This document shows, piece after piece, positions 3,780 through 42,992 of a stretch of 56,701 nucleotides of DNA (its first letter is position 1; each line of letters opens with the position of its first letter). The translations under genes were made by a program, and so were the position numbers. The DNA is taken from the NCBI GenBank assembly GCA_004124475.1, contig SCKK01000020.1:1-56701 (forward strand). Direction: 5' to 3'. The notes under the pieces were generated by a model, which did no database searches, was not told where the DNA came from, and was given only the letters and a program-made list of their open reading frames with translations. The stretch comes from Fidelibacterota bacterium. Lineage in GTDB: Bacteria > Fidelibacterota > Marinisomatia > Marinisomatales > SCKK01.

Positions 3780-5056
3780 TTTCTGCAGATCATCTGGAAA
3801 GACAGTTACAAACAATCATAGACGGAAACCGCATCCTTCCACCTCAGCCTTCCATTCCTGTAAAGATCACCGTATTCCCGGAAAACGAACAACAAATTAG
3901 TGAACTCGTCAAATGGGCGACTAAAGATCAAATTACTCTTTTACCCCTCGGTGGTGGAACACATACATTCTCCGGAATAGAAGATTTACACGTGGCTATT
4001 TCCCTGACAAAAATGAATCACCAAATTGAACATGTATCTGAAGATCTGATCGCAACTGTAGCTGCAGGGATGACTTTCAAAGACGTACAGACTGATCTTT
4101 CATCACATGGACAAATGATTCCCCTGGATCAACCCGGAAAACATAACTCAACGATTGGTGGGATGGTCAGTGCTAATGTTTCAGGTCCAAGCCGTCATCG
4201 ATATGGAACCGCTCGGGACTGGGTGATAGAAACCAGACTCATCAATGCAGATGGAAAAGTTGTCAAGTCAGGGGCTAAGGTGGTAAAAAATGTGAGCGGA
4301 TATGATCTCAATAAACTTTATATCGGCGCCAGAGGCACTCTAGGAATACTCACTTATATTTCTTTTAAACTTGCACCCATCCCGAAGTCATCTGTCACTT
4401 TCCGATCCTGTTACAATTCACTGACCGATGCCTTTGCGTTGACCCATCTAATAAGACGGGAATATTTAGACATCGAAAAAATGGTTATAATCAAAGGGAA
4501 ATGGACTCCCGGAAAGACAAAACATTGGTGGTTACTAATAGATCTGGCGGGTACCGAAATTGGAATAGAACCACAAATTAAACACTTATCTAAATTACAT
4601 GATCAGGTAGAAGCAAGACGATGGAACATCACCTCTAAAGAAGACTCTCAACATTTCTGGAACATGGCATGTAATAGAGAAAAATCTGATGATACTATTT
4701 CAAATGAGGATATCTGGGAAGTACGAATGGTTCTGCCAAAAAGGGAGTTACTTCCCTTCCTGGTTGATCTTACTATATCAGATGAAATGAATGTTTCTTT
4801 CAAAATATTTCCTACCAGCGGAATTTGTACAATCGAATTTGTAGGAAAAAAGAGTACAGTCACTAATATATTGAATTTTATTATCAAAGAGGTTAAAGTA
4901 AAAAAGGGGTTGGTTGAGTTTGTAAAAATGCCACCAGATACTAACTTTGAGCGTTGGCCTATACTCCCCCCTTCTTTCCCATGGATTCAAAAAATTAAAA
5001 GGGCATTGGATCCAAATAACATATTTGCACCAGGTACATTTATCGGGGGAATTTAG
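3776..5056 (+). CDS. glcE: Glycolate oxidase FAD-binding subunit GlcE-like
   Basis: The second FAD-binding subunit of the glycolate oxidase complex, about 426 residues. It has the PCMH-type FAD fold (PLGGGTHTFSG near the N-terminus, QPGKHNSTIGGMVSANVSG and SGYDLNKLYIGARGTLGI further on) and ends with the family tail RALDPNNIFAPG. Two TTG codons are possible, at 3770 and 3776. I prefer 3776 because the GGGGGG run at 3764-3769 is then six bases away and the start overlaps the glcD stop as TTGA. The next gene, glcF, begins 222 bases later. That gap (5057-5278) contains a stretch like the dispersed repeat seen near 39.5 kb (TTCCCAAAGGGACTCC). Confidence 0.85.
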   Translation: MISADHLERQLQTIIDGNRILPPQPSIPVKITVFPENEQQISELVKWATKDQITLLPLGGGTHTFSGIEDLHVAISLTKMNHQIEHVSEDLIATVAAGMTFKDVQTDLSSHGQMIPLDQPGKHNSTIGGMVSANVSGPSRHRYGTARDWVIETRLINADGKVVKSGAKVVKNVSGYDLNKLYIGARGTLGILTYISFKLAPIPKSSVTFRSCYNSLTDAFALTHLIRREYLDIEKMVIIKGKWTPGKTKHWWLLIDLAGTEIGIEPQIKHLSKLHDQVEARRWNITSKEDSQHFWNMACNREKSDDTISNEDIWEVRMVLPKRELLPFLVDLTISDEMNVSFKIFPTSGICTIEFVGKKSTVTNILNFIIKEVKVKKGLVEFVKMPPDTNFERWPILPPSFPWIQKIKRALDPNNIFAPGTFIGGI

Positions 5057-13000: not shown

Positions 13001-13379
13001 TGTAGTAACAGCGACCGATTTTAACGGTAATGAGAGCAACTACTCAGTAGAAGTGGGTGGTAGTTTGGGTATCTATGAGATTGGACAAATCCCGACAAGG
13101 TTTGAACTTGCCCAGAACTACCCGAATCCATTTAACCCGTCTACTACGATTCAGTTTGATCTTCCCAATAATGGTACTGTCCTGCTTTCAATCTATAATT
13201 TGTTAGGGAAGGAGATTAATACTGTGGTGAATCGTGAGTTTCAGGCAGGTCGTTACCGGTTTGAATGGGATGGCACCAACAAGGCAGGAAAGTTGGTACC
13301 TAGTGGCGTTTACTTTTACAGAATCTCAGTAGATGGAAACGAATATGTTGAGACCAGAAAAATGATGCTACTCAGATAA
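10017..13379 (+). CDS. Large secreted protein with carboxypeptidase-regulatory-like repeats and T9SS sorting domain
   Basis: A 1120-residue exported protein. A hydrophobic segment at about 13-28 serves as signal peptide. A charged, RQ-rich linker (about 70-130) follows, then an acidic domain near 150-270 (DADxN-like: DMNANGTWEDTDDFD) that may bind calcium. Next are several copies of a carboxypeptidase regulatory-like beta-sandwich, marked by repeats such as GVVTDEDGDPLDSVVVWA, GIVRDAQTQDPISDAWVGA and GFVYDSDTGLPIEDADVDV. A fibronectin-III-like part (about 820-1020) comes before the C-terminal sorting domain FELAQNYPNPFNPSTTIQFD, ending RKMMLLR. Proteins of this build are taken across the outer membrane by the type IX system and anchored or released. 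AAGGAG lies just before the ATG. An intrinsic terminator follows. Confidence 0.85.
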   Translation: MNHVNTLRLVGKFFCATLALMITLTSFPVAEKIIKKDKNPAEISINNAEQLAVKPDAQTGTELTSSEALDVELINEIRLKKDQTTDRMERAQNRRKIQQRQQVAKVKEQIRSRSFHKSRDRRRIPDVSNPFKIDVKSTRESRTSMIYSDTILEGVADSIYILVNGVNADTITQGDDIVVTIHFSASSTEADVGFWLDMNANGTWEDTDDFDVDEGDHIVDNDEEDENPADGVYQITFYGDDEEGLSWISNLGLLLVAEDAGGSDAAFLYIEPIETDYSVSGTVTPAMANIMVMAFPMHRMGPGMDPGMGGDPEDEPEPRITMTDTSGHYQNFLPDSGFYAIFSFDFLGVTGGWIPDTTYFEVFVDGHLTGFDFDYIAPNAWIEGVVTDEDGDPLDSVVVWANQEKGPGTWTETDSTGHYTLGVLEGYWWVGLDNEDLIPDYLVPWDEYPFVTVGDTVNVDFTAYATDATISGIVFLNDFPIGGVGIGADCIFGWTDAWSEFNSIGSYTLSVTSAADDEGGYFVFAWDLPQDVFVEEYYEGIRSGSMGIDFYLHSVFGGIEGIVRDAQTQDPISDAWVGAWDGESWFGTGTDPDGFYHLALPNGTYEVDAGADRYYPLYVGTVLISDDFLVLDISLEPVSFNGSLSGFVYDSDTGLPIEDADVDVGSEDYWDHTHTDTAGYYHFPLPNGEYWAAAWKEGYAPDYTDSLIVIADNDVVHNFFLAPIVIDAAIEGVVFDSTTGQPIIGAFVSAYSEIFFAETVTGSGGYFFFEVPSNTFWLDVFAEGYEPEFIELFVATEETVSVEIGLLPRLIRSPVITSINDVPNDQGRQVRITWLPGDPSDYGIWQKFSIWRQVHDSDLHLWDFITEIPFHGLEEYSYVAPTLNDSNATTGLTDEFWSVFMVTAHTFDPWTFFDSEPEWGYSIDNLEPSEPGGLLASVSTAEVVLQWLPNPEEDLDYYTIYRGTNSGFEPAEPFSHTIDTVFVDSEIESDVTYFYVVTATDFNGNESNYSVEVGGSLGIYEIGQIPTRFELAQNYPNPFNPSTTIQFDLPNNGTVLLSIYNLLGKEINTVVNREFQAGRYRFEWDGTNKAGKLVPSGVYFYRISVDGNEYVETRKMMLLR

Positions 13380-13406
13380 TCTAAGACGTTTATGCTCTCC
13401 CTGATA

Positions 13407-13437
13407 GGTCCCCCGATTCGTCGGGGGACTTTTTTTA
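13407..13437 (+). terminator. Intrinsic terminator of the T9SS-sorted protein gene
   Basis: A perfect 9-bp stem, GTCCCCCGA (13408-13416) with TCGGGGGAC (13421-13429), is closed by a TTCG tetraloop and followed at once by seven T residues. It lies 28 bases after the stop codon. The T-run overlaps the stop codon of the convergent thioesterase gene. No T-run serves the opposite strand, so it acts for plus-strand transcripts. Confidence 0.93.
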
Positions 13438-13824
13438 TTTCCCATGAGGCACTTTCTCCCACCGTCCGTCCTTCCCTTTTTTAACTGCCACCATTGTGAA
13501 CAGTGCTTCACATACTGTCCGAGATTTCCCCAATGGATTTTCTGCAGTGGCTTTAACCTCCACGACAAACGAGGTTACACCAGTTGATACGATGGTTGAT
13601 TCAAAGTTAACCCACTCTCCACCGTAAACCGGCTCTGAAAATACTACCTTATCAACAGCTTTGGTAACACCACCTTCTGCTACTGTTCCCCTTAAAAAAC
13701 GATGAGCGGCTTTCCCTGCGGCAATATCCATCCAAGAAATCATCTTGCCCCCAAACAGGGTACCGATATTGTTTAAATCATTGGGCATGACCAATTGACT
13801 ATATCGAGCAATGATCTTTTCCAT
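13435..13824 (-). CDS. Hotdog-fold acyl-CoA thioesterase (YciA/BACH-like)
   Basis: A 129-residue single hotdog domain that should hydrolyse acyl-CoA thioesters in the cytosol. Family motifs are the N-terminal LVMPNDLNNIGTLFGGKMISWMD, where the N/GG region with an aspartate (D33) supplies the catalytic site, and a central TKAVDKVVFSEPVYGGE strand followed by FVVEVKATAENP. The length matches bacterial YciA-type enzymes. The ATG at 13824 has only a weak upstream site (GGAGTAAT). It is convergent with the T9SS gene, and its stop codon lies within that gene's terminator T-run. Chain-length preference cannot be read from the sequence. Confidence 0.85.
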   Translation of the reverse strand: MEKIIARYSQLVMPNDLNNIGTLFGGKMISWMDIAAGKAAHRFLRGTVAEGGVTKAVDKVVFSEPVYGGEWVNFESTIVSTGVTSFVVEVKATAENPLGKSRTVCEALFTMVAVKKGKDGRWEKVPHGK

Positions 13825-34098: not shown

Positions 34099-36449
34099 AT
34101 GAAAAACCCTATTTACCAAGGTCAACTGCTCTTAGGAAAAGATTTAGAAATAGAGTACAAAAAACGGAAACGAGATTATGAAGAAAAACGAATAATGCAC
34201 GGATCCCCAATTCCTAAAGGATGGCATGTAACTGAACTAAAAAGTTATATTAAACTTAAAAGAAAACTGCCATTAAGTAGAATTTTTGAAAACGACGTAT
34301 GGTGTTTATTTTATGAATTAGGAATGTATCAAATTTCCTCATCAAATTTTCAGATAAGACTTTCTTCTAAAGATCGAAAGGAAATAGATGTGTTAGCAAT
34401 TGATGAAGATGTCGTATTTATTGTTGAATGTAAAACTAAGAAGAAAATTGGTGAAAAGGACAACTTAAAGACTGAAATAAGGAAATTGCATTCAGACAAG
34501 AGTGAAATATCAAAAGTACTTTGGAATATATTGGGAAAAAAACTAAAGCCTATATTTGTAATTGCAACTTACAATATCTTATGGCGGGAATATCAAAGAG
34601 AGGTTGCTAATAGGAAAAGAATTCACATATTTGATGAATATGATGTTATGGCAATAAGAGACCTTTCAAAATTAGCAGGAAATGCTGCTAAGTATCAGCT
34701 TTACAGTGAAATATTTTATGGTGAAAAAATTCATAAGTTTGAAGTCCAAGTACCAGCTATTGAATCAATTATGCAAGGTAAAACTTATTATACTTTCAAT
34801 ATGTTACCTGAACATCTCTTAAAAATAGCATTTGTGCATAAAAGAAGGAAATCATCAATACCATTCCAAGAGCTATCCGATAGTTACCAGAGAATCTTAA
34901 ACTCAAAAAGAGTAAAGGATATTAATTTATTTATCATTGACGGTGGATTTTTCCCCGGTAACATAATAATTAATTTTCAGCACAATCTTAAAGTTATTTC
35001 TATAGGAGGTAAGCCTGAATTCTCTAAGAATGTTATTGGAAAAACAAGACCAGTAATTATTACGCTACCACCATACTATGGCTCAGCTTGGATAATTGAT
35101 GGACAACATAGACTTTACGGATATTCAGATTCTGAATCACGAACAAAAGATACTATTCCTGTAGTAGCATTCGTAAAAGAAAAAATCAGGCAGAGATTTT
35201 CTTTAACATAAATGTTAATCAAAAACCCATTGATAAAAACCTATTATGGGATCTCTATGAAGATTTATACCAAGATTCTATTGATCCTAAAGAATTGTAT
35301 CTACAAGCAGTTTCCAAATTAGCTAAAAAATTAAACTCTTCAAAAAAAGGTCCATTCGAAAATAAAATCTCAATTCCTTATTTAGGAAATGAAGGTACAA
35401 TAGATTTAAAAACTATTTGTAATGCCTTAAATCGTAATCGTTTGATATATAAAGACGAAGGACATTTATTTTTTGAAGATTATGACCAAACAATCAAAAT
35501 TGCTTGCGAAAGGATTAATGATTATTTTGATTTATTTTCAAAATATTTAAATGATCTTTGGACTAAAGGTGTTGATGGATTTTTATTATCAACAGCAGGC
35601 ATCGGTGTTCTTTTTGCAATGTATAGTGATTTATTAATTAACCTTACAGTCTCAGAAAGAAAATCACAAAAAAAACATTTTGAATTTTGGCACGATATGA
35701 TGTTACCTGTAATTGAACATCTGGAAGTACAAAATGACGAAACATTAAGAAATTATATTAAGGCAAGTGTCGGCCGAGCACAATCTACTGATCTACAAGT
35801 AACATTTACAGATCTAATTGTTAAGAGTAAAAGAAGTGGAACATTCAATTCACCATTTTGGAAAAAGTATCAAGAAAACAGACTAATTAAAGAAGAAACA
35901 TCATTTCTAGATTTACTAGACAGGGAAGAAGGAATAACACTGGATTTCAAAGGTTCTTTTAAGTTAGATGTAAATAATCTCATAAAAGGAAATGGTAAGA
36001 CAATAATAAAACCCAATATAGCTAGAGACGGAGTTATTAAAGTAATATCATCCTTCTTAAACACTAAGGGTGGTGATGTTATACTAGGATTAATAGAAAA
36101 ACAATTTTATCCAGAGGTTGAAAGGGATAACCTTGATTTTGTTTCACACAATGATTTTTATTTATTGGGTATTGAAGAAGAAATAAAAACAACAAAAAAT
36201 ATGACAAAAGAGAGATATCAAAATGATTTGATTCAATCCTTTGATAGCCATTTTGATTGCAAATATCCCTATAATATCACCTTCCATCCATATAAGGGTG
36301 TCACTCTATGTAGAGTAAGTGTTGATAGTCTACCTCCAAACGAAGATTGTTATATAGATGGCAAAATATTTTATGGACGTCGTGGTGCGAAATCAGATCC
36401 ACTAGTTGGTAGAGAAATACAATTACACAAATCAAAATATAGTGGGTGA
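34099..36449 (+). pseudogene. Nuclease-like + DGQHR + AlbA/Schlafen-like fusion, broken by a frameshift
   Basis: Two frames (34099-35211 and about 35186-36449) join into one protein of about 783 residues if one A is added to the A6 run at 35180-35185. The text then reads on as QAEIFFNINVNQKPIDKNLL, the usual continuation after a DGQHR motif. The N-terminal part has EID (95-97) and VECKTK (E110, K112), a PD-(D/E)xK nuclease pattern. The centre has WIIDGQHRLYGYS (DGQHR at 334-338) as in DndB-like proteins. The C-terminus has GITLDFKGSFK and ISSFLNTKGGDVILG, an AlbA_2/Schlafen-like domain. These domain types occur in phosphorothioation and other defence loci. Very AT-rich compared with neighbours. 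It may be a pseudogene, a slippage-expressed gene or a sequencing error. Confidence 0.7.
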
Positions 36450-36764
36450 ATTTTGTTGGCTTTCTAACCCAAATTAGAGTTAACATGAAAAGTCTAGCGA
36501 TGAATTTCGAGTTTGGGGAATCAACAAATGCAAAGTACAAAAAGGAAACTTGAGTGAGAAGGATTTTAACGCACCTCTTCTTATCCGTTGGGCAGTATAA
36601 ATAAGGGCTCAAGTCTTGACTCTTGCTCATTCCACGGCAGGGAATATGATCAAAGGCACCAGGGGACTTAATCCACTGGTCCTGCTAACGCTTGAGCCAA
36701 TCCAGCCGATACGGTCAAGCAGCAGTCAGGACCTTACCCCTTGTGCGGTATTACGAGGCAAGTC
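36450..36764. other. Transition region between the AT-rich and GC-rich foreign genes
   Basis: No gene is visible. Base composition switches here from about one-third to well over half GC. GGCTCAAG (36606-36613) and CTTGAGCC (36691-36698) form a perfect 8-bp inverted repeat 77 bases apart. CCGTTGGGCAG near 36587 fits the GTTRRRY core of integron attachment sites, but I see no matching left half. The ribosome binding site GAGG for the next gene lies at its end. Confidence 0.35.
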
Positions 36765-38646
36765 ATGTCCAATCAACTCCTAAACCCGCTGTCCGAGGCT
36801 GAGTGCCCGAAGTCTGGGCTCACGGTCAACTGCTTGTCCATAGACATGATCGGCTCGACGAAGAAGACCATAGCCTTTCCCACATCTAAGATTGATCGCT
36901 TCAACCGATCCCTCGTGCAGCAGATTGAGCCCCACCTGAAAAACCTGGACCTGGATAAGGAGCTGTTGAAGTTCACGGGCGATGGCTGGCTCCTGATTAC
37001 GCCCCACTCGAAATGCATTCCGCAACTGTGCTGTCTCGCGCTCATCCAGAGGCACTGCTTCCAGAAGGAGATGGCAACTAAGTGTGACATCCCAGAGAAC
37101 AAAATACCGTCTTTGCGCATCGCATTGTGCCAGGGCCGCGATATTGAGGTCAAGCTGCCCGATGGTAGGCAGGATTGGGTCGGCGATAGTGCCCGTCGCG
37201 CCAAGCGCGCCGAGCAACATTGCTTTACGAACGCGAGCGAGATACTCATCCAGGACGCTATTGTCAATGCATTGTCACTAAACCGAGACTTCAATTTCAT
37301 CCCTGCCGACATCGAGGTGCGACCGGACTACGAAAAGCACAAGAAGGAGGAAGCAATCGAATTGTACACACTCCAGAGCATCAACGTGGAAGCTGTCGCC
37401 GATGCGGACGCCTCGCCTTACTACGTTTACACGCTCAAGGCCATTGGCGATGCGCAAGCACAGGCAACAGCCGAGAAGGCAGGCGAACAGATACTCAAAC
37501 AGGCAGCGGCAATGCACGATGATAAACCCCTCCGGGTCAAACGTGTGCTGTTGCCGCGTTTGGATCGCCTCGCTGCCGCCACCGGAGACCTTTCCTTCGT
37601 CGGACGAATGACACAGCGTAGGCTCCATTACGGATTCAGTCCCAGCGCCATCCCGTACAACATATGCATCCGTGACTCTTCCACTTTCCCGCAGGCAGTT
37701 GACTGGTTCGAACGGATGCGCCAAGACGGCATCGACCCCGACGTGGTCACATACTCCACGCTCGTCAGCAAGGCCGAAGACTACGCGACCGCCAAGGACT
37801 GGTTCGAACGAATACGCCAAGACGGCATCGACCCCAACGTGGTCACATACTCCACGCTCGTCAGCAAGGCCGAAGACTACGCGACCGCCAAGGACTGGTT
37901 CGAGCGGATGCGCCAAGACGGCATCGACCCCAACGTGGTCACATACTCCACGCTCGTCAGCAAGGCCGAAGACTACGCGACCGCTAAGGACTGGTTCGAA
38001 CGGATGCGGCAAGACGGCATCGACCCCAACGAGGCAACATACCCCACCCCCGTCACCAAAGCCCAAGGCCACGCAACCGCCAAGGACTTTGTCGAATGGG
38101 CGCCGGCAAGACGGCATCGACCCCAACGTGGTCACATACTCCACGCTCGTCAGCAAGGCCGAAGACTACGCGACCGCTAAGGACTGGTTCGAACGGATGC
38201 GGCAAGACGGTATCGACCCCAACGAGAAAACAACCAGCGCACTGTTTGCCAAAGATCTGTCTACGGTAACCGCCGAGGAACTGCTGAATTGGTACTGGTC
38301 ACAGGGTTATGGACGCGGTGAGCCATTACAGGCAGCCATACGTTCGCATCGGACGGCACGGCGGGTTGACGAGGCGTTCCGAATTGCGCTGCATTATCCG
38401 TATCTCCAAGCCGCGCAGAGGCTCTTCCGTGATTTCCCTGTGCAGATCAGGAGCTACTTGATGTGCGTGCTCACAGATCAGCCCAATCATCCCGACGTGC
38501 ATTACGCGCTGAGCGTGGTGCTCATGGAGGGGGGCGAGAACACCGAAGCGGAAACGCATCTTCGAGCGGCATTAGAAACTGCCACCCAGGAGAAGAGAAA
38601 ACATGATATCGAGGCGCGGCTGCGCAGGCTCAACTGCCAGCAATAG
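36765..38646 (+). CDS. Class III nucleotidyl cyclase-like domain fused to pentatricopeptide-like repeats (frameshifted)
   Basis: I start at the ATG at 36765, with GAGG seven bases upstream, not at the earlier TTG at 36741. Residues about 20-225 look like a class III cyclase domain. NCLSIDMIGSTKK gives the first metal aspartate (D27) and LLKFTGDGWLL the second (D73), with a later WVGDSARRAKRAEQ segment where the usual Asn is replaced. From about residue 313 come 32-residue repeats of the type VVTYSTLVSKAEDYATAKDWFERMRQDGIDPN, matching pentatricopeptide (PPR) repeats but three residues shorter. A single extra base near 38098-38104 shifts the frame in the fifth repeat. The true tail (LFAKDLSTVTAEELLNWYW... 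LRRLNCQQ) continues to 38646. GC-rich and foreign to its surroundings. Confidence 0.65.
37701..38240 (+). repeat. 96-bp tandem repeat array encoding PPR-like units
   Basis: Units start at 37701, 37797, 37893, 37989, 38085 and 38182. Each is 96 bases except the fifth (97, carrying the frameshift); the sixth is partial. The first three are almost identical at the DNA level; the fourth and fifth carry the divergent segments around 38026-38110. This indicates very recent expansion and some gene conversion. Confidence 0.93.
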
Positions 38647-38876
38647 CTCTCTTTACCATTCACCATGCAACGCGCGGAGCATACCGTCCGAAGAACCCAC
38701 TACTTCAGCAGCTGGGGTTATTTGAAAACAAGCAACCGGCGTTTTGACACAGGCAATGCCATCGGGTCATTAGGCCCAAAAATACGCTGAAGCCGACCGC
38801 ATATCCTGGTGCGATTTTAGGCGGTGACGTTTCGCGGTGGCTTAGCTGTAACGTTAGCTGCCAAGAAAATTGACGA
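38647..38876. other. Spacer ending in an attC-like right half-site
   Basis: No gene is visible in 230 bases. The end, GGTGGCTTAGCTGTAACGTTAG (38837-38857), resembles the right half of integron cassette attachment sites (a GCTTAGCT-type inner site followed by AACGTTAG), and the HEPN gene starts 20 bases later. I cannot find a matching left half, so it may be a remnant only. Confidence 0.35.
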
Positions 38877-39452
38877 ATGAGTATGCCACTGCCACTGGAT
38901 GAGCGTATAGAGCTAGCCGCGCAGTTGATCAAGCGAGCAAGGATTTTCTATGACGTCTGGTGGTTCTATGAAGGTACAGGCACGCGACCCCGGATACTGG
39001 ATACTATGAATCGATACTCCGAGTTTTTCCGATTCGATACCCACGCGCATTTTGTCTCGATGGTGGTCCATCTTGCGGGGTTATTCGAGACTCGTAGCGA
39101 CACAATAAACTTCACTGCGCTCGTCGACGAATTGGATACTTCCGGATTGTTTCCACCAGAAGACCTAGGGCAAGCACAGGACGTAATCAAAGAAATTCAA
39201 AATTTACCTTCAAAGCTTGCTATCCTGCGAAGTAACTTGTTCGCGCATCGGAGCGCTTCACTCTCATACAAGGAGGCATTCCGAAAAGCGGATGTTACTC
39301 CAAACCAACTGCGTGATTTAACTGTAGCCGGACTTCGTATCGCTAATATTCTTTTACATGCGCGTGGTCTTCCAGAGCAGCATTTCCACGAGTTATCACG
39401 TAAGGACGCAGAGAGGCTACTACATGATTTGGCACAGACGAAAGGCACCTAA
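38877..39452 (+). CDS. HEPN-domain, AbiU2-like protein
   Basis: A 191-residue all-helical protein. The segment LAILRSNLFAHRSASLSYKEAF (about 117-138) contains R-x5-H, the catalytic pattern of HEPN ribonucleases, in the setting seen in AbiU2-like proteins. Such proteins are tied to phage defence or to toxin-antitoxin behaviour through RNA cleavage. An alternative start two codons later (second Met) is possible. No nucleotidyltransferase antitoxin is adjacent, so it is an orphan here. Its flanks resemble integron cassette ends, and its composition is closer to the GC-rich cyclase gene than to the host, which suggests transfer. Confidence 0.6.
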   Translation: MSMPLPLDERIELAAQLIKRARIFYDVWWFYEGTGTRPRILDTMNRYSEFFRFDTHAHFVSMVVHLAGLFETRSDTINFTALVDELDTSGLFPPEDLGQAQDVIKEIQNLPSKLAILRSNLFAHRSASLSYKEAFRKADVTPNQLRDLTVAGLRIANILLHARGLPEQHFHELSRKDAERLLHDLAQTKGT

Positions 39453-39510
39453 CCCATCGCTCCACCGGAGTCCTCCAAGGGAGTCCCTCCGGGACCTTTG
39501 AGAAACACTC
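39448..39510. repeat. attC-like left half-site next to a dispersed repeat
   Basis: CCTAACCCATCGCTCCACC (39448-39466) includes the HEPN stop codon and looks like the left half of a cassette attC site. It runs into GGGAGTCCCTCCGGGACCTTTG (39479-39500) and GAAACACTCTAAAACATTAAC. Their reverse complement matches the word pattern near 5128-5160 (GTGTTTCCCAAAGGGACTCC). The boundary between foreign cassette and host repeat therefore lies near 39470. Confidence 0.4.
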
Positions 39511-39561: not shown

Positions 39562-40707
39562 TTATAGAACATCTTTCCCACTATAGTTCGGGGCATTTTT
39601 TATCATTTTGATATCATGAGGATGATTCTCGATTTTCCCAGACGCTGTAACCCGAATAAATTCTGTGATCGTCTGCATTTCTTGTATATTGTGTGCCCCG
39701 CAATATCCCATAGCCGCCCGTAAGCCACCGATCAGTTGATATAAAGTGTCAGCAAGTCGACCTTGATAAGGAACAGCGCCTTCTATTCCCTCAGGCACCA
39801 GTTTTTTCATGGTATCTTTTTCTTGAAAATAACGGTCGGCGCTCTGCTCCCACATTGGACCTATGGACCCCATTCCCCGGTAAGATTTATAAGGTTTACC
39901 GTCAAGTGTTATCAATTTTCCCGGACTTTCATCAAGTCCCGCAAGAAGCCGCCCAAGCATCACACATCCCGCTCCCGCAGCGATAGATTTGGCAATATCT
40001 CCGGAGTAACGAAGACCCCCATCTGAAATCACTGGAATGCCACTCTCCATTGCTACCAGAGCGCAATCAATGACTGCTGTTAATTGAGGCACGCCGATTC
40101 CTGCAACGATTCGAGTAGTGCAGCTTGCACCGGATCCAATACCAACCTTAATTGCGTTCACACCCGTTTCGATGAGAGCTGCAGCGCCTTCTCTGGTTGC
40201 AACGTTCCCGGCGATTAATTGTGCAGATGAAAAAGCCAATCGAACCTTTTTTACTGTCTCTAAGACACCTTTGGAATGACCATGAGCAGAGTCCAGGACA
40301 AGCACATCAGCCCCAGCCTCCAAAAGAGCCGCAGACCTCTCTAATACATCTTCCGTGACACCAATCGCTACACCTACTCTCAGTTTGTTCTTCTTATTAA
40401 CAACTGCATTCGGAAAAGATTCTGTATCGACTTCTTCTTTTTTTACGAGAATTACTTGATCTGCTTGCTGTTCAATGGTCATATTTTTATGAAGGATTCC
40501 CATTCCTCCTTCTTTGGCAAGGGCTATAGCCATTTCGGATTGCGTCACCGTATCCATGGCAGCACTGATGATGGGAATTCTTAGCTGGATTTCTCTTGTA
40601 AGATTTGTGGAGACATCGACTTCTATTGGCAACACGTCCGATGCCTTTGGAATTAATAGAACATCGTCAAATGTTAACCCTTCCCTATAAGACTGCGTCT
40701 TTTTCAT
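39562..40707 (-). CDS. guaB: IMP dehydrogenase, CBS-less, copy 1
   Basis: Catalyses IMP to XMP with NAD, the committed step to GMP. At 381 residues it is about 110 short of the usual enzyme because the two CBS domains are replaced by a short linker (about 90-112, after [20 protein letters not shown]). The catalytic cysteine is C196 in [13 protein letters not shown] (the usual form is GPGSICTTR). The flap dyad R292-Y293 in DRYFQ and the tail GMGSIGPM and [14 protein letters not shown] are present. It is about 95% identical to copy 2 at 41847-42992. This copy has N184 and K264 where copy 2 has the more usual D and E, so it may be the drifting one. The ATG has only a weak upstream site. Confidence 0.88.
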
Positions 40708-40991: not shown

Positions 40992-41276
40992 ATGAAACCA
41001 AGTGAATCAATCAGACCAATCAGTTACCTTAAAGCACATGCTGCTGAAGTAATCAGGGATATTGCCAAAAATCACAAAACAATTGTAATTACACAAAATG
41101 GTATAGCAAAGGTCATTGTCCAGGATGTACGCGAATATGAACGCACACAGGAAACTATTGCCCTGTTAAAAATACTCGCGAAAAGTTCTCAAAGTATCAA
41201 AAAAGGGAAATTTAAACCTATTGAACAATCGTTTAAAGACTTAAATAACAGGATTGATACATACAAACAATCTTGA
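40992..41276 (+). CDS. Phd/YefM-type antitoxin
   Basis: A 94-residue antitoxin. The N-terminal Phd/YefM fold is seen in IRPISYLKAHAAEVIRDIAKNHKTIVITQNGIAKVIVQDVREYE (about 7-50), which binds DNA as a dimer. The C-terminal lysine-rich tail should wrap the toxin. A strong GGAGG lies seven bases before the ATG. Its stop codon overlaps the toxin start as TTGA, as usual for coupled pairs that repress their own promoter. It lies between the two guaB copies on the opposite strand. Confidence 0.9.
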   Translation: MKPSESIRPISYLKAHAAEVIRDIAKNHKTIVITQNGIAKVIVQDVREYERTQETIALLKILAKSSQSIKKGKFKPIEQSFKDLNNRIDTYKQS

Positions 41277-41596
41277 AATTCAAAGTACATCTTCTATCTG
41301 ATGCTGAAGAAGATTTGTTTGATATCTACCGTTATGTAGCTTCTAATGACTCTGAATCAAAAGCGATGAGGCTCATTCAAAAGTCTGAAAAACTTTGTTA
41401 TAGTTTAGAGGAATTACCAAATCGTGGACACGTTCCACCCGAATTAGAGGAAATTGGAATATTTGATTATTTAGAAATTCACTATAAACCCTATCGAATC
41501 ATTTATCAAATCATAGAAAACAGTGTCTTTATCCATTGTATTTTAGACGGTCGTAGAGATATGGAAGAAATATTGTACCGAAGATTTATACGTTAA
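41273..41596 (+). CDS. RelE/ParE-family toxin
   Basis: A 107-residue toxin with the RelE/ParE fold. It opens KFKVHLLSDAEEDLFDIYRYVASNDSES, has LPNRGHVPPELEEIGIFDYLEIHYKPYRIIYQI in the middle and ends with the VFIHCILDGRRDMEEILYRRFIR strand and helix. RelE members cut mRNA on the ribosome and ParE members poison gyrase; this sequence fits either. The start is TTG at 41273, overlapping the antitoxin stop by four bases. With the antitoxin it is the only gene content unique to the space between the duplicated guaB units. Confidence 0.88.
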   Translation: MKFKVHLLSDAEEDLFDIYRYVASNDSESKAMRLIQKSEKLCYSLEELPNRGHVPPELEEIGIFDYLEIHYKPYRIIYQIIENSVFIHCILDGRRDMEEILYRRFIR

Positions 41597-41846
41597 TATA
41601 GTTGCCTTCTAATAGCGGATGCAGCTCACGTAGCCTTTTCAGAAGCAACATCAGAAATTTTCAAAACTTGTGACGATAAGTTATTGAAAAAGTGTAGAAA
41701 AATTGTAACTATTCAGGCTGAAGCAAAGGCACCCCGACACTGCGTGAACCTACCCGTCCGGCAGGCGAGCGGGGCAGGCACTTTAATACATAAGCACGTA
41801 AGAAATTAACACATTAGCCCATTGCAATGCCGTTATAAAACGATTA
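41597..41846. repeat. Gene-free spacer with a GC-rich palindromic element
   Basis: No gene is visible. Near 41750-41780 is a GC-rich element (ACCCGTCCGGCAGGCGAGCG) of the scattered CCTGCC-type family, followed by CTTTAATACATAAGCACG and ATTAACACATT words like those near 15.1 kb. From about 41800 the sequence matches the segment after guaB copy 1. Confidence 0.5.
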
Positions 41847-42992
41847 TCATAGTACGTCTTTCTCCCTATAATTAGGGGCATTTTTTATCATTTTGATATC
41901 ATGAGGATGATTTTCGATCTTCCCGGATGCTGTAACCCGAATAAATTCTGTGATCGTCTGCATTTCTTGTATATTGTGCGCCCCACAATATCCCATTGCC
42001 GCCCGTAAGCCACCGATCAGTTGATATAAAGTGTCAGTAAGTCGACCTTGATAAGGTACAGCGCCTTCAATTCCTTCAGGTACCAGTTTTTTCTTAGTAT
42101 CTTTTTCTTGAAAATAACGGTCGGCGCTCTGCTCCCACATAGGACCTATGGACCCCATTCCCCGGTAAGATTTATAGGGTTTACCGTCAAGTGTTATCAA
42201 TTCTCCCGGACTTTCATCAAGTCCCGCAAGAAGCCGCCCGAGCATTACACATCCCGCTCCCGCAGCGATTGATTTGGCAATATCTCCTGAGTAGCGAAGT
42301 CCTCCATCAGAAATTACTGGAATGCCACTCTCCATTGCTACGAGAGCGCAATCAATGACTGCCGTTAATTGAGGCACGCCGATTCCTGCAACAATTCGTG
42401 TAGTGCAGCTTGCGCCTGACCCAATACCAACTTTAATTGCGTCCACACCCGTTTCGATGAGAGCCGCAGCGCCTTCTCCGGTTGCAACGTTCCCCGCGAT
42501 TAATTGTGCAGATGAAAAAGCCAATCGAACTTTTTTTACTGCTTCTAAGACACCTTTGGAATGACCATGAGCAGAGTCCAGGATAAGCACATCAGCTCCA
42601 GCCTCCAAAAGAGCCGCAGATCTCTCTAATACATCTTCCGTGACACCAATCGCTACACCTACTCTTAGTTTGTTCTTCTCATCAACAACTGCATTCGGAT
42701 AAGATTCAGTATCGACTTCTTCTTTTTTTACGAGAATTACTTGATCCGCTTGCTGTTCAATGGTCATGTTTTTATGAAGGATTCCTATCCCTCCTTCTTT
42801 GGCAAGGGCTATTGCCATTTCGGATTGTGTCACCGTATCCATGGCAGCGCTGATGATGGGAATTCTTAGTTGGATTTCTCGTGTAAGATTTGTGGATACA
42901 TCGACTTCTATTGGCAACACATCCGATGCCTTGGGAATTATTAGAACATCATCAAATGTTAACCCTTCCCTATAAGACTGCGACTTTTTCAT
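41847..42992 (-). CDS. guaB: IMP dehydrogenase, CBS-less, copy 2
   Basis: The second of two 381-residue IMP dehydrogenase genes, with the same CBS-less build, C196 in GSGASCTTR and R292-Y293. Compared with copy 1 it differs at about 18 residues, including S4, I18, I69, Y99, D104-E105, I137, A151, G172, D184, E264, K300 and T319. D184 and E264 are the residues more often seen in the family, so this is the better candidate for the working enzyme. Upstream and downstream flanks are also shared with copy 1. It is followed on the plus side by histidine ammonia-lyase after 152 bases. Confidence 0.88.

Follow-up and report, generated by a model that had tools for sequence, protein, structure and literature searches.

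A cyclase-type domain joined to short pentatricopeptide-type repeats on an integron cassette

Pentatricopeptide repeats (PPR) have their usual home in plant and mitochondrial RNA-binding proteins and are scarce in bacteria. Fusions of cyclases to TPR repeats exist among the bacterial members of class III. In plants, PPR and cyclase activity have been proposed to reside in one polypeptide, an adenylyl cyclase centre having been reported inside proteins of the PPR-AC type, where it forms a short motif within the PPR protein and not a separate class III domain. Class III enzymes that lack the transition-state Asn are known, among them Rv1900c, which is active despite its loss; mycobacterial DUF2652 proteins also lack the residue, and nearly all DUF2652 members are single-domain proteins (PMC4886424). 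Avs5 proteins with PPR-type C-terminal repeats serve as phage sensors, and proteins are the presumed ligands of these repeats (PMC12931631).

In the literature searched, neither a cyclase-PPR fusion, of which the first-pass annotation likewise knew no example, nor a PPR-bearing integron cassette was found. The gene described here combines the two and lies in a window of 56,701 nucleotides, the whole stretch of DNA analysed, from a Fidelibacterota bacterium (contig SCKK01000020.1, assembly GCA_004124475.1). The features of the locus are as follows.

34099-36449, + strand: preceding AT-rich genes for DGQHR/DndB-like and Schlafen AlbA_2 proteins (TIGR03187 8.8e-23; PF04326 4.5e-6)
36463-36593, + strand: attC-like site of the preceding DGQHR and Schlafen/AlbA cassette, R' GTTGGGC at 36587-36593 (aligns with sites L031 and L076)
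36588-38853, + strand: integron cassette with the cyclase-PPR gene, bounded by G^TTGGGC and the 3' attC cut site (start of homology with the relative L007; flanking attC-like sites)
36765-38180, + strand: open reading frame of 471 aa encoding the cyclase-like domain, linker and PPR units (ORF listing; Pfam PPR_2 1.4e-26)
36834-37385, + strand: divergent, putative nucleotidyl cyclase-type domain of class III, from about residue 24 to 207 (motif test; hhalign; identity with L007)
37386-37700, + strand: linker, predicted helical (AlphaFold2 model m1bd022d0400c, helices 205-304)
37701-38224, + strand: six 96-bp units giving 32-residue PPR-type repeats, unit 5 degenerate (TRF, Foldseek, profile search, AlphaFold2)
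38224-38646, + strand: C-terminal tail with a TPR_19-like segment, in a frame different from the gene start (TPR_19 3.3e-5, just under cut-off)
38774-38859, + strand: 3' attC of the cyclase-PPR cassette, with R'' GCCCAAA, L''/L' arms matching 8/8, one extrahelical base and R' GTTAGCT (revised attC scan)
38877-39452, + strand: next cassette, AbiU2-type HEPN protein (PF18734 HEPN_AbiU2 3.3e-17)

Reading frame, repeats and N-terminal domain

The cyclase motifs and the repeats lie in one gene, as had been proposed at first pass: SIDMIGSTK, FTGDGW and WVGDSARRAKRA all fall within the frame that starts at ATG 36765, codes to 38177 and stops at 38178-38180. The tandem array (37701-38224; TRF score 843) has units starting at 37701, 37797, 37893, 37989, about 38085 and 38182, so that the earlier count of at least five repeats becomes six, the fifth (about 38085-38181) being degenerate and out of frame. 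The frame break falls inside this unit, at about 38085-38110; beyond it the sixth unit and the tail, which runs to 38646, are read in a different frame from the gene start.

By profile and structural matches, the repeats are PPR of a short, 32-residue kind. Over the first frame, the Pfam models PPR_2, PPR_3 and PPR_1 gave E-values of 1.4e-26, 1.3e-20 and 1.8e-14, and PPR models exceeded their cut-offs widely (PF13041, 92.8 bits against 30; PF13812, 73.7 against 25; TIGR00756, 45.3 against 20); no Pfam TPR model matched that frame at E=1. NCBIfam also places the repeats with PPR (4.4e-12), and a PDB profile search with the gene and its relative is led by designed P-type cPPR/dPPR proteins and maize PPR10, aligned at about 32 residues per unit here to 35 there. 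The earlier assignment to PPR, and not to TPR or Sel1, thus stands on the agreement of Pfam, NCBIfam and the PDB search. In the AlphaFold2 model the units are predicted as helical hairpins, with pLDDT of 82-95 over most of the in-frame repeats, and Foldseek retrieves designed PPRs as the best matches to the repeat model (cPPR at 1e-8). Because every unit has 32 residues, as opposed to the 35 of the helix-turn-helix PPR unit, the repeats are classed as PPR-type and the protein not as a canonical PPR protein. At the code positions, the regular units of the window copy carry S6 N1', a combination read as A in the published PPR code (PMC3420917).

The N-terminal domain is very probably of the cyclase type. 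Five of the six canonical positions are present, namely the metal-binding D27 and D73, the base-selecting pair K69/D137 and the arginine R148; the position of the ribose (transition-state) Asn is occupied by R144, a replacement already recognized at first pass, and all six residues are identical in the relative. K69 falls in the Lys column (K three before GD) and D137 in the Asp column (D three before the second GD) of the cyclases of the phylum, whose adenine-selecting columns are exemplified by one such protein (L036; KIKTIGD, YDLWGDAVNIASR), and the K/D pair accordingly looks adenylate-type. A class III pattern that does not require the Asn (D..G[FSYH][ST], GD, R[IVM][GA] and G[D..]....A.[RK], with spacings) occurs in both copies and in none of 1.6 million shuffles, a count that somewhat overstates certainty because the pattern was composed after the sequence had been seen. 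Among the 324 ORFs run against it, the pattern matched known cyclases and this gene only, with a recall of 12 of 34 true cyclases. In hhalign the whole domain is colinear with the cyclases of the phylum over 170 columns, but the score is weak, and 2 of 500 shuffled profiles equalled it over 21 columns or fewer; a global profile score lies 3-4 standard deviations above shuffles and is equalled by a few unrelated proteins.

The first-pass assignment to class III therefore holds for the order and spacing of the motifs but not at the level of family profiles: Pfam returned zero families at E<=10 for the domain alone, for which reason it is named cyclase-type and is not filed as a class III member. 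Searching the PDB with the domain gave chance matches only. Structure prediction, which had been proposed as a check, modelled the PPR repeats well but yielded no confident model of the cyclase part from the two-sequence alignment (pLDDT about 20-35). Catalytic activity of the domain is judged about as likely as not.

Cassette, relative and genomic setting

The feature is an integron cassette carrying a single gene, with a GTTRRRY boundary, a 3' attC and integron integrase matches in the genome. Homology with the relative starts at the GTTGGGC boundary (window 36587), and BLAST extends it five bases beyond. The upstream attC-like site aligns end to end with positions 13376-13511 of another locus of the same genome (L031; CCGTTGGGC in the window, CCGTTAGGC in L031), and also with positions 2557-2680 of a locus in a same-genus genome (L076, genome G070). 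The L031 site, which scored 1.4e-6 in nhmmer before it entered the model, has an integron integrase match some 1.6 kb away. At the 3' end, the bottom-strand fold of the window attC shows the arms at an ordinary total energy (z 0.03), and its counterpart in the relative (3836-3897) folds with z -3.0 and has R'' GCCCAAC, which is the expected inverse of the GTTGGGC at the start of the cassette itself. These sites escaped a strict attC scan, in which R'' and R' of the integrated site had to match, although no match is to be expected once a cassette has inserted beside another. The revised scan found sites across the whole window no more numerous than in shuffles, so the attC assignment rests on position, shared boundaries and the match to the L031 and L076 sites. 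Directly upstream of the cassette boundary in the relative's contig (1768-1834) stands a perfect hairpin with a 28-bp stem (z -11.4), which may be a terminator or else the attC of a cassette that lacks a gene.

The relative (L007) is a 4,885-base contig binned as Pyrinomonadaceae, and its taxonomic bin is soft because the contig is short and of low coverage (cov 0.996). As the sole close homologue found, it answers the homologue check proposed at first pass: it carries the same cyclase-PPR fusion and the same tail among different neighbours, is 78% identical to the window copy across the N-terminal 282 residues and has four repeat units to the window's six. Within a copy the units are 96-98% identical; exceptions are the final unit in both copies and, in the window copy, the diverged fourth and fifth units. 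In the relative an in-frame stop follows soon after the repeats; the interruptions thus differ between the copies, yet each cuts off the conserved C-terminal tail. Both keep the cyclase domain and three or more repeats open, and residues 1-305 can be read through in each. The conserved tail and the interruption of both copies had gone unnoticed at first pass, as had the cassette setting and the K69/D137 pair. Between the copies dN/dS is 0.46 for the cyclase domain, 0.61 for the linker and 0.44 for the tail, from which it follows that the whole protein was constrained for most of the time since they split.

Among the other 244 genomes in the phylum of the window, the same-genus one included, the gene had no match apart from a weak, spurious one (L009, genome G205), which belongs to an unrelated, peptidase-like ORF; the other 395 genomes of the relative's phylum gave no match either. 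The rarity of PPR in bacteria, asserted at first pass, is borne out in these two phyla, where PPR repeats exceed the cut-off in 2 of 244 and 1 of 396 genomes, respectively. Sequence searches with the N-terminal domain gave no matches in plasmids, phages or IMG/VR. The single repeat match in IMG/VR (L066, 35 residues) was taken as chance, no sizeable + strand ORF being listed there. A match in the Rahnella aquatilis plasmid pMEM40-2 (L010, CP036489, 1399-3609) is a 736-aa plant-type protein of 35-residue PPRs, probably from plant DNA in the assembly.

The AbiU2-HEPN cassette begins 23 bp ahead of the ATG of its gene. At 39463, adjoining guaB, sequence in common with the same-genus genome sets in again as host flank. 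GC3 is 0.73 in the cyclase-PPR gene against 0.17-0.22 in the preceding DGQHR and AlbA_2 genes, which makes different sources for the cassette units probable. The 3.15-Mb genome is unusually integron-rich: six integron integrase matches exceed the TIGR02249 cut-off (contigs C57, C71, C54, C50, C65 and C13), four of them near full length and those on C65 and C13 partial, with many further fragments. None lies on the window's own contig by the same model. A T9SS sorting domain points to the FCB group. The gene for IMP dehydrogenase, guaB, occurs twice in the window (39562-40707 and 41847-42992; proteins 96% identical), with a short two-gene unit between the copies (about 40992-41597) that is toxin-antitoxin-like by eye; the same-genus genome has one copy at that place.

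Possible functions

The reading tentatively preferred here, at somewhat less than an even chance, is that of a mobile single-gene sensor whose adenylate-cyclase-like domain, divergent and possibly weak, is under the control of the PPR-type solenoid. The solenoid would most likely be the input: on ligand binding, the cyclase domain would change in dimerisation or geometry and then make cAMP or another cyclic nucleotide at a low rate. A protein would be an equally or more likely ligand than RNA, given that a STAND-like NTPase of the same order shares these repeats and those of Avs5 are thought to bind proteins. As the cassette carries no receptor, reading the signal would fall to cyclic-nucleotide receptors of the host; the host encodes cNMP-binding proteins as well as ordinary cyclases, so a cAMP-type signal could be read. 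Such a protein would sense and catalyse and might act in stress or phage defence, a defence role being one that the neighbouring genes, and they only, suggest. Counting against this sensor-cyclase are the missing Pfam cyclase match, the weak hhalign and global profile scores, the lack of a usable AlphaFold2 model of the cyclase, the absent transition-state Asn, the interruption of both copies before the tail, the want of a conserved effector neighbour and the soft bin of the relative. Some of the same evidence bears on an alternative judged rather unlikely, namely that a functional cyclase-PPR ancestor is being lost in both copies and gives no useful product now. The frame break in window unit 5 and the stop just past the repeats of the relative would fit such decay, as would the divergence of window unit 4 and of the window attC; the dN/dS of 0.44-0.46 for the tail and cyclase domain argues against it, as does the open frame that each copy retains in the cyclase domain and in three or more repeats. 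It is similarly unlikely that the fold is kept as a dimerisation or nucleotide-binding switch that makes no cyclic nucleotide, repeat binding being the output. Although the loss of the ribose Asn and the poor profile scores would be consistent with this, five of the six catalytic positions are kept in both copies, and class III enzymes such as Rv1900c remain active when the Asn is the one residue lost (PMC4886424).

A regulator whose repeats bind an A-rich single strand, either controlling mRNA or triggering the cyclase, is doubtful; RNA sensing was among the possibilities raised at first pass. Its best matches are RNA-binding P-type PPRs and the code residues of the regular units read A (PMC3420917), but there are just three to four regular in-frame units, each three residues short of the 35-residue motif, and the same repeats occur on the STAND-like NTPase, while those of Avs5 are described as binders of protein ligands (PMC12931631). 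The more elaborate version, an RNA-triggered cyclase spread by integrons that would recognize A-rich or invader RNA and switch on second-messenger synthesis, and in which recombination between near-identical 96-bp units would alter both the number of repeats and their code residues, is improbable. Equally improbable is an anti-phage cyclase of the Pycsar type with its receptor encoded elsewhere, for which the defence-like neighbours (AbiU2 HEPN, DGQHR and Schlafen AlbA_2) and the class III motifs common to Pycsar cyclases (PMC11224242) could be cited. The likeness to Pycsar drawn at first pass is not established: PADLOC gave no Pycsar match, no TIR or TM receptor gene stands beside the window copy and no effector partner or other neighbour is shared by the two copies; moreover, genes that adjoin in a cassette array may be functionally unrelated, and the K/D pair looks adenylate-type. 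Since neither copy is interrupted in the cyclase part or in several of its repeats, the sensor-cyclase reading is directly testable.

Comparison with known systems

The fusion is real, unusual and, as far as the searches show, new, though its parts are of known kinds. Two copies of one cassette in genomes that are, as binned, distantly related mean that such a sensor-cyclase can move between lineages. The protein resembles class III cyclase domains (PF00211 Guanylate_cyc) in its ordered D..GST, K..GD, RI. and D..GD....A.R motifs at standard spacing, and differs from them in falling below all Pfam thresholds, in the change of Asn to Arg and in the attached PPR-type repeats. The DUF2652 cyclase-like proteins are remote class III relatives that, like this domain, keep the metal-binding Asp and the Arg (PMC4886424); the protein described here is, in contrast, multi-domain, and its N-terminal domain has no Pfam match to any family.

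With the Avs5 (nSTAND3) protein PaAvs5-3, it shares the plan of a signalling protein in bacteria whose C-terminal part is a PPR-type solenoid, the sensor in Avs5 and most likely in the window protein, Avs5 having a Sir2 effector and a STAND NTPase where the window protein has its cyclase domain (PMC12931631). A further parallel in the repeats comes from a genome of the same order (G033), which encodes a STAND-like P-loop NTPase fused to the same 32-residue PPR repeats; its gene is split over two contig ends, inside the repeats (L067 6099-7406 and L068 2-883). Repeat length and consensus are as in the window protein and a helical tail is present, whereas an N-terminal membrane (hydrophobic) helix and the P-loop NTPase stand in place of the cyclase domain. 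Taken together with this NTPase, the cyclase-PPR protein suggests a bacterial class of short-PPR solenoid sensors mounted on different signalling domains.
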